A stretch of 64,000 nt of DNA, taken from Lachnospiraceae bacterium (GTDB taxonomy: Bacteria > Bacillota > Clostridia > Lachnospirales > Lachnospiraceae). The stretch is from the NCBI GenBank assembly GCA_015056865.1, contig SVFM01000008.1:1-64000 (forward strand), written 5' to 3'. A program made the translations under genes and the position numbers. How positions within the stretch are numbered: position 1 is the stretch's first letter; each line of letters starts with the position of its first letter. The notes under the pieces are model-generated. The model searched no databases. It saw only the letters and a list, made by a program, of their open reading frames with translations, and was not told the DNA's origin. Below are positions 22,659 to 30,365 of the stretch, in pieces.

Positions 22659-23512
22659 ATGACTTATTCTAATGCTGCCGATAACGGCAGATCTGCTTTG
22701 TCTTTGGAAAGTGCTACAGGAAAAATGCCCTTTCCTCTGAAAAATGATTATATGTTTCGCGCTATGCTGCAGAGTAGCAATCATGCATTAAAAGGCCTAA
22801 TTGCTGCCCTATTGCACATTTTGCCGAATGAAATTACATCCGTGGAGATTACCAACCCAGTAGAACTTGGCCTGAACGGTCTTTGGGGTATTTGTGTCGT
22901 ACTTTTGATCACTTAAATAGCGGACAGGATTATATGGAAACGAAATCTGTGATACAGATTTGCTTTTTGGATTTCACTTTGTTTCGAGAAAATCCGAATT
23001 TTTATACCACTTATATGTTTTGCGATATCAATAGCCACACTGTCTACAGTGATAAGCTAAAGCTTTCTATAGTGGATTTGACGCAAATAGAAAGAGCAAC
23101 AAAAGAGGATATTCGATACGGGATTGATCACTGGGCCAGATTATTTAAGGCGACCACATGGGAGGAATTAAAAATGTTGGCAGAGACAAGCGAATTTTTA
23201 AAAGAAGCATCCGAGGCAGCGTACAAGCTTAGTGCAGAAGAAAAAATACGTCTGAAGTGTGAAGCAAGAGAAGATTATTACCGCCAGCAAAGGTATATCG
23301 AACGTAGAATGCGACAGCTGGAAGAAGCGGAGAAAAAAATATCAGAGAATGAACAAAAGTTAGAGAATCTTAAGCAAAGCCTTGCCGCTACGGAGCAAAG
23401 TCTCGCCAAGACAGAGAAAATCCTTGCGGAGAAGGACAGGCAAATAGAGTTTATGAAAGAGAAATTTAGAGCAGTTAACATCACTTCAAAGAGAATAAAA
23501 GAGTTTTTTTAA
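22659..23512 (+). pseudogene. Rpn/PD-(D/E)XK nuclease family 'transposase', disrupted by internal deletion
   Basis: N-part PFPLKNDYMFRAMLQSSNHALKGLIAALL...VEITNPVELG is in one frame; PERSLGYLCRTFDHLNSGQDY...AEEKIRLKCEAREDYYRQQRY continues in another. The expected middle (D...LEMQ) is missing. Confidence 0.85.
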
Positions 23513-25507: not shown

Positions 25508-25588
25508 AAACGGTTGACATATCAAAATAAAAAATATACTATGACAATAAGTGTTAAAACACTGAATAATTATGCAAGGAGAAATATT

Positions 25589-26434
25589 ATGAAAAAATTA
25601 TTAGCAACACTACTTATTTTAGTTATGTCAGTATGTGCACTGGCAGGCTGCGGAGAGGAAAAGTCCAAGAAGGTAAAAGTGATCGACATCAACCTGACCG
25701 AGGAAGAATATGCATTCGGCGTGGATAAAGCTCAGCCGGAACTGTTGGAAAAGACGAATGAATTCATCAAGGAGATCATGGAAAACGGCACCTTTGAAGA
25801 GATTTGCAACAATTATTTCGGCGACGGTACTCCTGTTGCAGTAAAATCTGCAAAACTTGATGAGTCCAAAGATCAGCTGCTGGTAGCTACCAATGCTTCA
25901 TTTGAACCTTTTGAATATACAGAGGGTGACAGCTATTATGGTATTGACATGGAAATGGCAGCAAAGCTGGCAGAGTATCTTGACAAAGAACTGGTAATCC
26001 AGAACATGGATTTCGATGCAGTTTGTCTGTCTGTTGGCCAGCACAAGAGTGATATCGGTATTGCAGGTCTGACTGTGAAAGAAGATCGTAAAGAGCATGT
26101 AAATTTCACAGATTCTTATTATAATGCATCACAGAAGCTGATCGTTATGGAGGATGATACTACTTTTGATAATTGCAAAACAGCAGCAGATGTAGAGGCT
26201 ATTTTGAATAAGCTTGACAAAAAGACTAAAATCGGCGTTCAGAATGGTACAACAGGAAAGTTTTATGTAGAAGGTGATGAAGAATGGGGATTTGCCGGCT
26301 ATGCAGTTACCTGCACAGGTTATAAGAACGGTTCCATGGCTGTTCAGGATATGATCAATGGAAACATTAATTTTGTAATCATTGACTCTGCTCCTGCAGC
26401 AGCTATCGTGGAAGCAATGAACGCAATGCAGTAA
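25589..26434 (+). CDS. Amino-acid ABC transporter substrate-binding lipoprotein, apparently circularly permuted
   Basis: Lipobox ALAGC. The segment LTEEEYAFGVDKAQPELLEKTNEFIKEIMENGTFEEICNNYF, normally C-terminal, comes before LLVATNASFEPFEYTEGDSYYGIDMEMAAKLAEYL. Confidence 0.92.
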   Translation: MKKLLATLLILVMSVCALAGCGEEKSKKVKVIDINLTEEEYAFGVDKAQPELLEKTNEFIKEIMENGTFEEICNNYFGDGTPVAVKSAKLDESKDQLLVATNASFEPFEYTEGDSYYGIDMEMAAKLAEYLDKELVIQNMDFDAVCLSVGQHKSDIGIAGLTVKEDRKEHVNFTDSYYNASQKLIVMEDDTTFDNCKTAADVEAILNKLDKKTKIGVQNGTTGKFYVEGDEEWGFAGYAVTCTGYKNGSMAVQDMINGNINFVIIDSAPAAAIVEAMNAMQ

Positions 26435-26455: not shown

Positions 26456-27166
26456 ATGGGTAACTTTGACCGGAAAATAGAGCGATTTTTAGAAATCTTC
26501 ATAGATCAGAGAGGTTATGTAACAGTTCTGGAAGGCTTGCAGAATACCTTGCTGATCGCTGTGCTGGGCCTGGTGATCGGTATCGTTATAGGTACCTTGA
26601 TCGCTTCTGTACGCGTGATGCCAAAGTATAAGACTTTACCAAGAGTTTTGGATAAAATCTGTAGCTTTTATGTGGCAATGTTTCGTGGCACACCCATAGT
26701 AGTACAGTTATTGGTGTTTTACTATGTCTTGTTACCCCTTCTTGGGATCAGAATAACCGGTGTGCAGGTATCCATCATGGTATTTGGCTTAAACAGCGGT
26801 GCCTATGTATCGGAAATCATGAGAGCGGGTATTTTATCTGTAGATCCCGGGCAAATGGAAGCCGGACGTGCTGTGGGCCTTAGTTTTCTCACTACCATGG
26901 TAAAGATTGTGATACCCCAGGCAGTCAAAAATATTTTGCCTACCTTAGGAAATGAATTTATTGTATTGGTGAAAGAAACATCGGTAGTCAGCTTTGTAGG
27001 CGCCTCTGATCTATATGTGGCATTCAGTTATATCGGAAGTAACAGCTATGAGTTTATGGTGCCCTATCTGGTAATGGCCATTATTTACATAGTCATTGTC
27101 CTGATCATCAGTTTCGGTATCAAAATGATGGAAAGGAGCCTGCGAAAGAGTGATAGACGTAATTAA
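26456..27166 (+). CDS. Polar amino-acid ABC transporter permease
   Basis: [66 protein letters not shown]. Confidence 0.95.
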
Positions 27167-27938
27167 TCTGAAAAAAAGCTTTGGTCAGTTAGAAGTTCTC
27201 AAAGGAATAGATCTGACAGTAAAAAAGGGAGATATTATTGCAGTCATAGGACCCTCCGGCTCCGGAAAAAGTACCTTTTTAAGGTGCCTGAACTGTATGG
27301 AAGATCCCACAGGGGGACAGATTATTTTCAATGGAGTGGATATCGCGGATATGTCTGTGGATATCAATGTCCACAGGCGGCATATCGGTATGGTATTTCA
27401 GCATTTTAACTTGTTTAACAACAAGACTGTAAAGGAAAATATTATGCTGGCGCCGGTGCATGTGAGATGCCAGGAATTGCGTAAGGCAAAGCGTAAAAAG
27501 GATGCTGAGAAGGCCGGTGTGAATATGACCAAGAAGCAAATCAAGGAGGAAGCAGAGAGACAGGCAATCGATCTGTTGAAGCGTATTGGTTTGGAGGACA
27601 AAGCAGATGTTTATCCGTCTACACTGTCCGGCGGTCAGAAGCAGCGTGTGGCAATTATCAGAGCATTGGCCATGAATCCGGATGTGATCTTGTTCGATGA
27701 ACCCACCAGTGCGCTGGATCCGGAGATGGTAGGAGAAGTTTTGGACCTGATGCGTGCACTTGCAAAGGAAGGAATGACCATGATCGTAGTTACACATGAG
27801 ATGGGGTTTGCCAAAGAAGTGGCAAACAGAATCCTTTTTATGGATGACGGACAGATTGTGGAAAGTGGAGATCCAAAGGAATTTTTCGCAGATCCTAAGA
27901 CGGATCGTGCAAAAGAATTTTTGTCAAAGGTTTTATGA
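27150..27938 (+). CDS. Polar amino-acid ABC transporter ATP-binding protein
   Basis: [56 protein letters not shown]. Confidence 0.96.
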
Positions 27939-27985: not shown

Positions 27986-28756
27986 GTGGTGGATATCATG
28001 TCTGGGGAAGAGAGAAAGCAAGTAATATTGGAGTTATTAGCCAAAGAAGGAAGTGTAAAAGTTGCAGCATTGAGCCAGCTTTTTGGCATATCCGAGGTTA
28101 CTGTGCGAAACGATCTGGCTGATATGGAGTATAAGGGATTGCTATCCAGGGTTCACGGCGGAGCGGTAAGTTCATATAAGCCCTATTACAGCATGAACTT
28201 AAATCAGCGGCTAACCACCAATCATTCAGAGAAGATCGCTATTGCCAGAAAAATTGCGGACATGGTGAAAAACAATGATACTATTATGTTGAATTCCGGT
28301 ACAACTACGCTCCAAGTGTTTCGCATGTTTCCCCAGAATCTGAACCTGAGTATTGTTACCAATTCTATTGCCATCGCATTGGAAGGTGCAGATAATCCCA
28401 ATTTTAATATTCTGTTGCTGGGCGGTTTTGTAAATTCAAAATATCAATTTACATTCGGAGATGATGTGAATCATCAATTAAAGAACTATCATGCAGACAA
28501 ATTAATTTTGTCTGTGGATGGAATTGATCTAAATAATGGTTTTACTACTTATTATGACAAAGAAGCAGAAATTGACCGTATTATGTTGGCCCAGTCAGAT
28601 GTGAGCATTGTGGCAGCGGATTTTTCCAAATTCAATAGAACCGCCTTTACCAAAATTGCTGACCTGAAGGTGGCGGACTATATTATTACTGATAAGGAAG
28701 TCCCCGCAAAATTGCAGAAGGAAATTCAAAAACAGGGCGTGGCAATCAAATTTTAG
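27986..28756 (+). CDS. DeoR/GlpR family transcriptional regulator
   Basis: EERKQVILELLAKEGSVKVAALSQLFGISEVTVRNDLADMEYKGLLSRVHGGA. Confidence 0.93.
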   Translation: MVDIMSGEERKQVILELLAKEGSVKVAALSQLFGISEVTVRNDLADMEYKGLLSRVHGGAVSSYKPYYSMNLNQRLTTNHSEKIAIARKIADMVKNNDTIMLNSGTTTLQVFRMFPQNLNLSIVTNSIAIALEGADNPNFNILLLGGFVNSKYQFTFGDDVNHQLKNYHADKLILSVDGIDLNNGFTTYYDKEAEIDRIMLAQSDVSIVAADFSKFNRTAFTKIADLKVADYIITDKEVPAKLQKEIQKQGVAIKF

Positions 28757-28798
28757 GGTTCCTTAAAATTGATTGCCACATAATATTAGTCTATATTC

Positions 28799-30199
28799 TT
28801 ATACAGTAGCTTCTTCGTATTTCAGATATCTTTCATAGGCCTGTGTATAGTCTGTTCCACTGGGGTAGTATACTTTGTCTGTGGCAACCAGCTTTTCACA
28901 GCTTGCTTTCACACTTTCGAAAATGCCGGCACCAACGCCTGCAATGATAGCAGAGCCGAGACACGCAGATTCAGCGCTCTTTAATGTAATGATCTTCTTG
29001 CCTGTAACATCCGCCTTAATCTGGCACCAGAGGGGGCTGGCAGCGCCGCCGCCCATGGAGCGGATCTCTTGGCAGGATACATTCAGATAGTCAAGGTTTT
29101 CCTGCAGCATAAAAGCAACAGCTTCCTGTATACTTCTGACCATATGAGCCCGGGTATGTTCCATGGTCAGTCCCAGAAAAGCACCTCTGGCGGCGGGATT
29201 GTATTTAGGGATGATGCTGCCGCAAAGGTAGGGCATGAAGGTTAGACCGTCGCAACCCGGAGCAACTTGTGCAGCAAGCTCATTAAGGTCATCAAAGCTT
29301 TTTCCCTCGCAGAAATTATCCCGGAACCACTTCAGGGCAATGCCCGCCGTGGGGGTCCAGGTCAGCAGACAGTAGTTTCCGTCATAATTGATATGGCAGG
29401 GTACTCGGTTGTCCTCTTTATAGGGAGGGAATACATCCGTAGGAACCACGATAGCCATGGTGGTTCCGGTCATTTCGCTGACAACGGTATTGTCAATGAC
29501 ACCGGCACCGATGGAACCGGCAATCTGATCCATAACACCGGTTACTACTGTGACACCGTCATATGTACCAATTACCTGAGCACTGTCCATAAGTCTGGGC
29601 AGTTGATCCGGTTTAATACCGATAAAGTCTAACATTTCCTGCCACCAGCAACCTGTTCGGATATCCAGATACAAGCTGGAGGATTGCAGTGTTTTTTCGG
29701 TGACAAATTCACCGGTTAATTTATAGAGCAGATAATCTTCCAACAGAAAGATCTTTTCAATTTTTTCAAAAATATCAGGTTCATTCTCCCGCATCCACAG
29801 AAGTTTACAGGCAGGCCATGTGGCGGTAATCTCAGGCTGGCCGGTGATTTCATAAACTTTTTGCACACCAAAAGTGTCATTTATTTTTTCTGCCTGTACA
29901 GTGGCTCTGTTATCCAACCATACGATAGCATTATAGAGCGGATCTCCCTGTCCGTCTGTCATGATCAGGGTCTCGCACTGGGTGTCAATGGAAAGAGCGG
30001 AGATGGAGTATTCGCTGCGGATTTCCTCGTAAGCGCTGTGAAACATTTCCCAATAATGCAAGGGATCCAATTCTACCCGGTCCTCCTTTGAGATCAGGGT
30101 ATAAGACTTTGACACAGTTTTTAATATATTGCCATTCTCATCAAATAAAACCATTTTCAGTGAAGTAGTACCTACGTCAACGCCAAGCAAGTTTGCCAT
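28799..30199 (-). CDS. FGGY-family carbohydrate kinase (xylulokinase-like)
   Basis: MANLLGVDVGTTSLKMVLFDENGNILKTVS, AIVWLDNRATVQAEKI, GGGAASPLWCQIKADVTGKKI. Confidence 0.88.
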   Translation of the reverse strand: MANLLGVDVGTTSLKMVLFDENGNILKTVSKSYTLISKEDRVELDPLHYWEMFHSAYEEIRSEYSISALSIDTQCETLIMTDGQGDPLYNAIVWLDNRATVQAEKINDTFGVQKVYEITGQPEITATWPACKLLWMRENEPDIFEKIEKIFLLEDYLLYKLTGEFVTEKTLQSSSLYLDIRTGCWWQEMLDFIGIKPDQLPRLMDSAQVIGTYDGVTVVTGVMDQIAGSIGAGVIDNTVVSEMTGTTMAIVVPTDVFPPYKEDNRVPCHINYDGNYCLLTWTPTAGIALKWFRDNFCEGKSFDDLNELAAQVAPGCDGLTFMPYLCGSIIPKYNPAARGAFLGLTMEHTRAHMVRSIQEAVAFMLQENLDYLNVSCQEIRSMGGGAASPLWCQIKADVTGKKIITLKSAESACLGSAIIAGVGAGIFESVKASCEKLVATDKVYYPSGTDYTQAYERYLKYEEATV

Positions 30200-30365
30200 A
30201 ATTTTTACCTTTACCTTTCCATAGCTTATGCCAGTTCTCATTCATGATACAACACACAAAATGAAAAGTCAAGACGCGGTCTTAGATGACTATATATATT
30301 GAAATATCTGGGGATTAGATGTATAATGTCATAAGTTTTATTATGATATCAAAGGAGGTTTTTCT

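Follow-up and report, generated by a model that had tools for sequence, protein, structure and literature searches.

One gene of the window (the whole 64,000-nucleotide stretch of DNA that was analysed) encodes a putative binding lipoprotein whose chain appears to begin with what is normally its end. This raises the questions of whether the order of its segments is truly rotated, whether the rotated protein still serves an ABC importer, and how often such a change has occurred. The gene product is very probably a lipid-anchored amino-acid-binding protein of an ABC importer and a natural circular permutant of the SBP_bac_3 fold. It belongs to this family according to its PF00497 (SBP_bac_3) score of 100.1 bits, compared with a curated cut-off of 26.4. 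The canonical order of the family, in which the front of lobe 1 is followed by lobe 2 and then by the back of lobe 1, is rotated in the window protein. The features of the locus are listed in Table 1. Promoter-like sites around the gene are hardly commoner than in shuffled sequences (9 versus 7.3).

Table 1. Coordinates of the permuted binding-protein gene, the segments of its product, and the adjoining importer genes in the window
Feature	Position	Strand	Details and basis
Circularly permuted SBP_bac_3 lipoprotein (very probable)	25589..26434	+	281 aa + stop, ATG start; Pfam, phmmer, profile, AlphaFold
Lipoprotein signal peptide	25589..25651	+	Lipobox LAGC, Cys21 expected to be lipidated; sequence
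Relocated segment, residues 27–77	25667..25819	+	Profile positions 174–227; 4zv1 180–233; 1ggg 173–223
18-residue linker, residues 78–95, former C-terminus to former N-terminus	25820..25873	+	Model without helix or strand element
N-terminal half of lobe 1, hinge 1, and first strand of lobe 2, residues 96–187	25874..26149	+	PF00497, profile
Remainder of lobe 2, closing after its last helix at residue 281	26150..26431	+	Profile positions about 104–176
Sigma-70-like promoter candidate	25514..25542	+	TTGACA-17-TACTAT; consensus match 10/12
Amino-acid ABC permease (HEQRo type)	26456..27166	+	PF00528 1e-24; TIGR01726 2.7e-21, over cut-off
Amino-acid ABC ATPase (GlnQ type)	27150..27938	+	PF00005 6.1e-38; NF007027 2.1e-91

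The best stretch of the match to PF00497 covers residues 97–224, and the relocated segment ahead of it is C-terminal in canonical, GlnH-type proteins. In phmmer searches against the PDB, residues 96–275 of the window protein align with residues 11–176 of AncQR (PDB: 4zv1), and residues 26–79 align with residues 180–233. The same swap is seen with GlnH (PDB: 1ggg), in which residues 4–104 are matched by residues 96–199 and residues 173–223 by residues 29–79. The search identified no close permuted homologue among the solved structures, and the best match, of 90.6 bits, is composed of swapped pieces. A profile of 229 positions was built from 30 canonical-order relatives, and each protein was scored against it as a single copy and written twice. 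The single copy of the window protein gives two out-of-order matches of 174.4 bits (positions 4–176) and 39.9 bits (positions 174–227), whereas the doubled sequence gives one domain of 211.6 bits covering positions 4–227. Doubling raises the score of none of the 30 canonical proteins. The earlier note had read the segment after the lipobox as the canonical C-terminal tail, followed by the normal N-terminus, with the chain stopping where the tail would continue. The alignments bear out this reading: the normal N-terminus of the family (residues 96–187, profile positions 4 to about 103) comes after the moved tail, and the core halts at profile position 176. The natural circular permutation that the note had proposed is thus identified by the swapped pieces, the single full match of the doubled sequence, and about 90 full-length homologues with the same order. 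Profile searches report such permuted proteins as fragments, which should serve as a warning.

Two alternatives would do away with the permutation. The protein could be a complete, ordinary SBP_bac_3 protein extended by an N-terminal helical pair, the case that the earlier note had named as refuting its proposal, and the position of the Pfam core, with about 75 mature residues ahead of its start at residue 97, is what such an extension would look like. However, nothing follows the core after position 176 of the 229, and the front piece supplies exactly the last ~53 positions that the core lacks, and merges with it on doubling; therefore, there is no added helical pair. The 92 homologues of the clade, most of which begin at profile positions 173–178 and finish at 174–179, argue against the extension as well, and we give it next to no credence. 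Smaller still, and in our view negligible, is the chance of an assembly error or a chimeric MAG contig. Many of the records are indeed MAGs, but the same order is kept in isolates and in about 90 loci, and is therefore not an assembly artefact.

The AlphaFold prediction for the window protein, a check that had been suggested together with the proposal of the permutation, was made with 74 homologues (model m23ebadef214d) and yielded a compact and confident structure with a mean pLDDT of 93.2 and a pTM of 0.83. The best PDB matches from Foldseek are ArgBP of T. maritima (E 1.6e-10), AncCDT-1, AncQR, and proteins of the GlnH type. The alignments are sequential and not permutation-aware, and cover about 186 columns of the 261-residue model (about 70%), a coverage that a rotated chain should give with an aligner of this kind. 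The relocated segment runs from the final strand of lobe 2 through hinge 2 into the C-terminal helix pair of lobe 1; its elements in the model are a strand of residues 29–32 and helices of residues 50–65 and 68–77 (full-length numbering). With the domain limits that we take to apply to GlnH, the relocated piece starts about eight residues before hinge 2 in GlnH numbering, and the first mature strand therefore belongs to lobe 2. The break is located one beta-strand before hinge 2, inside lobe 2, and not at the lobe boundary. A break at the hinge itself had been considered and was dropped once the chain was mapped onto GlnH numbering. Since the break is one strand ahead of hinge 2, both hinge crossings should stay covalent. 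The chain is rotated by about 50 residues relative to canonical binders, and both new termini are in lobe 2, whereas those of canonical members are on lobe 1, as in LAO-BP (PMC5087393).

The window protein shares its family, predicted fold, site positions, and operon partners with canonical GlnH (PDB: 1ggg, 1wdn), T. maritima ArgBP (PDB: 4prs), and AncQR. Residues F105, F142, G160, T162, R167, and D266 are invariant in 74 sequences, and so are N102, Q218, and T222. We take the first six to be the equivalents of F13, F50, G68, T70, R75, and D157 of GlnH, of which Arg75 and Asp157 presumably hold the alpha-carboxyl and alpha-amino groups of the ligand. As judged from the sequence, the invariant site positions point to an alpha-amino acid as the ligand. 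The side-chain pocket has N102 and Q218 in the places of D10 and K115 of GlnH, and given this dissimilarity we name no substrate. Differences from close homologues amount to about 0.5 at third codon positions and 0.10–0.19 at the others, and this excess of third-position changes indicates purifying selection on the gene. In most homologous loci, genes for the permease and ATPase come after the binding-protein gene, and the HEQRo-type permease and GlnQ-like ATPase mark the locus as that of a polar amino-acid importer. The match of the ATPase to the GlnQ model NF007027 is below the equivalog cut-off despite its low E-value. The earlier note had spoken of a functional operon: both genes are placed as it described and their order is conserved, while "functional" is what this arrangement suggests.

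The 18-residue linker joins the former C- and N-termini, and the new termini open in lobe 2, one strand ahead of hinge 2. If both hinge crossings are covalent, the permuted protein would still close on an alpha-amino acid as GlnH or HisJ does, and pass the ligand to the permease. The lipid tether would then be on lobe 2, beside the hinge, instead of on lobe 1. The permutation could also be real and the transport role lost, with the protein having become, for example, a sensor or an enzyme, as is conceivable in a family whose solved relatives include cyclohexadienyl dehydratases. This is decidedly improbable for a protein that is encoded directly upstream of a permease and an ATPase in most loci, is fused to a permease in two genomes (L093 and L098), and has kept the GlnH-equivalent positions for the alpha-amino and alpha-carboxyl groups invariant.

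The order of the window protein, in its own clade (A1), was found in 9 of the 60 same-genus genomes searched and in 80 loci taken from a named genome collection. Isolates that carry it include Acetivibrio mesophilus N2K1, A. straminisolvens JCM 21531, Thermoclostridium caenicola DSM 19027, Blautia sp. Marseille-P3201T, and Eubacterium ruminantium FB3002. The breakpoint survey proposed in the earlier note shows that about 90 further homologues across Clostridia, 66–80% identical in the aligned set, keep the tail-first order over their whole length. The lipobox pattern is present in 90 of the 92 homologues of the clade. A second tail-first clade, A2, has the same register and is 41–44% identical. 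When the window sequence is de-permuted, its nearest canonical proteins show 43–45% identity along the full length. The genome sampling is uneven. In a class sample of 291 genomes, 28 have strong matches, 21 of A1, 6 of A2, and 1 of the other, lobe-2-first register, and only 3 genomes in a phylum sample of 300 have a match at E 1e-40.

In the second register, found in about 20 loci, lobe 2 comes first, and the two parts of lobe 1 follow with the back ahead of the front. These proteins end one strand behind hinge 1, at profile positions of about 103–107, and doubling of one of them (L012) turns matches of 158 and 145 bits into one of 306. The predicted structure of the second register (pLDDT 89.4) is built of the secondary-structure blocks seen in the model of the window protein, swapped as wholes. 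In Foldseek searches it matches OpuAC along its length (TM 0.57), and also HisG and LysR-type proteins with TM of about 0.4–0.46; these latter values are in keeping, at the level of the models, with the pseudo-symmetry between the two lobes. Only two SBP_bac_3 genes were found in the genome of the window: the window gene and a lobe-2-first gene (L002, L172; contig C38, 40319–41032). Relatives of the latter exist in both orders, and the permuted L173–L177 and the canonical L178–L186 are about 60–73% identical across registers, with permeases that are about 56–67% identical. They are the clearest natural pair of permuted and canonical proteins.

Seven second-register proteins are fused to permeases. 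L217 (G098:C26) has three binding domains and L220 (G179:C193) has two, and both arrays are fused to a permease at their end. The arrays are shifted as wholes, so that they begin with lobe 2 and finish with lobe 1. A 910-residue chain (L218:1153-3882) combines a permuted binding domain, a permease, and an ATPase, and is, dimerisation apart, a single-polypeptide ABC importer. In L093 (from 3992 onward) and L098 (from 4001 onward), an A1-type tail-first binding protein is fused to its own permease. Canonical, tail-first, and lobe-2-first proteins of one Pfam family thus occur within the same bacterial family, with permuted forms of both kinds sometimes fused to permeases and the lobe-2-first form also in arrays.

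Trees were built on de-permuted sequences from two partly overlapping sets, the second of which adds the B2 set. Clade A1 forms one group with a support of 100/100. A2 lies among canonical proteins, one of which (L206) is inside A2 in the second tree, and the second register is scattered over several places. Could all permuted forms nevertheless descend from one ancient permutation, with the canonical relatives permuted back or misplaced in the tree? Both registers have a junction in which the back of lobe 1 leads into its front, and a joint origin of A1 and A2 was not rejected (p 0.09). In contrast, a single clade of all permuted proteins was rejected with a p of 1.1e-5 and a log-likelihood lower by 420 in the set with B2, and with a p of 0.0018 in the first set. 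The B2 group also has canonical relatives that are 60–73% identical, and we consider a single origin improbable. The permutation arose several separate times in Clostridia, at two or more places of the same protein. The number of events can safely be put at three or more, and is likely to be at least four (A1, A2, B1, and B2). This extends the earlier note, since the permutation recurs within SBP_bac_3 in two registers and has precedents outside amino-acid binders.

The permuted forms may go back to two binding domains fused in tandem, of which the first copy then lost its front and the second its back. The tail-to-head junction needed for this is present in the L217 and L220 arrays and between SBD1 and SBD2 of GlnPQ (PDB: 6h30), and fits permutation by duplication as described previously (PMC3320104). 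Each domain of GlnPQ is complete and in canonical order, unlike the window protein. No A1 protein was found to retain parts of both copies, as an intermediate would, and the duplication route is suggested for this clade by analogy with the other clades.

Other binding proteins are known to be naturally permuted. One is TpMglB-2 (Tp0684), of "Type Ic / Cluster Bc", a lipid-anchored ABC binding protein with Gram-positive relatives, and its authors also suspect a link between permutation and anchoring (PMC4990184). However, it has the type I sugar-binding fold of an unrelated family and its permutation adds a fourth hinge crossing, whereas the Pfam, PDB-sequence, and Foldseek matches of the window protein are of the SBP_bac_3 type. 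The two-lobe glycine-betaine binders (OpuAC, ProX) and molybdate binders are also related by natural circular permutation (CPSARST, PMC2395249), but they are less than 24% identical and bind different ligands, whereas the forms described here are up to about 73% identical within one Pfam family. The ECOD paper (PMC6588880) was set aside as a precedent, since the permutation in it concerns transmembrane domains; PMC2912341 and PMC7683729 deal with other subjects. No report of natural permutation in amino-acid binders was found in a literature search that covered a minority of subscription papers and no bioRxiv preprints, and this is weak evidence of absence. Permuted LAO-BP has been engineered for FRET sensors, in a design that reportedly follows Okada et al. 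2009. It still binds ligand, with a 36-fold weaker Kd for lysine in the sensor (PMC5087393). Its linked termini and new termini near the hinge resemble those of the window protein, but it is man-made and has one hinge crossing deleted, whereas the natural form has its opening within lobe 2 and should lose neither crossing.

Circular permutation is seldom caught in nature between close relatives, and these proteins offer a natural experiment on whether the position of the termini and the hinge connection matter for Venus-flytrap closure, on the course of permutation by duplication, and on the designs that sensor engineers make by hand. The median distance from the lipobox cysteine to the first matched residue is 5 residues in A1, 2 in A2, and 6 in lobe-2-first proteins, compared with 14 in canonical ones, and the idea of a shorter tether rests on this difference of medians. 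The canonical distances range from 2 to 63 and overlap those of the permuted groups. Tentatively, clostridial amino-acid binders may have been permuted repeatedly and adaptively: moving the point of tethering or permease fusion from lobe 1 to lobe 2 might alter docking or opening, and selection might have favoured it on four or more occasions, in two registers and by way of tandem fusions.

Elsewhere in the window, a DeoR-type regulator (+) faces an FGGY carbohydrate kinase (-) just behind the importer operon (27986-30241). Two overlapping frames are located at 22659-23512, the second of which matches positions 96–224 of 229 of PDDEXK_2 (PD-(D/E)XK nuclease family transposase). The first reads, by eye, like the missing front of PDDEXK_2, and the gene looks frameshifted.
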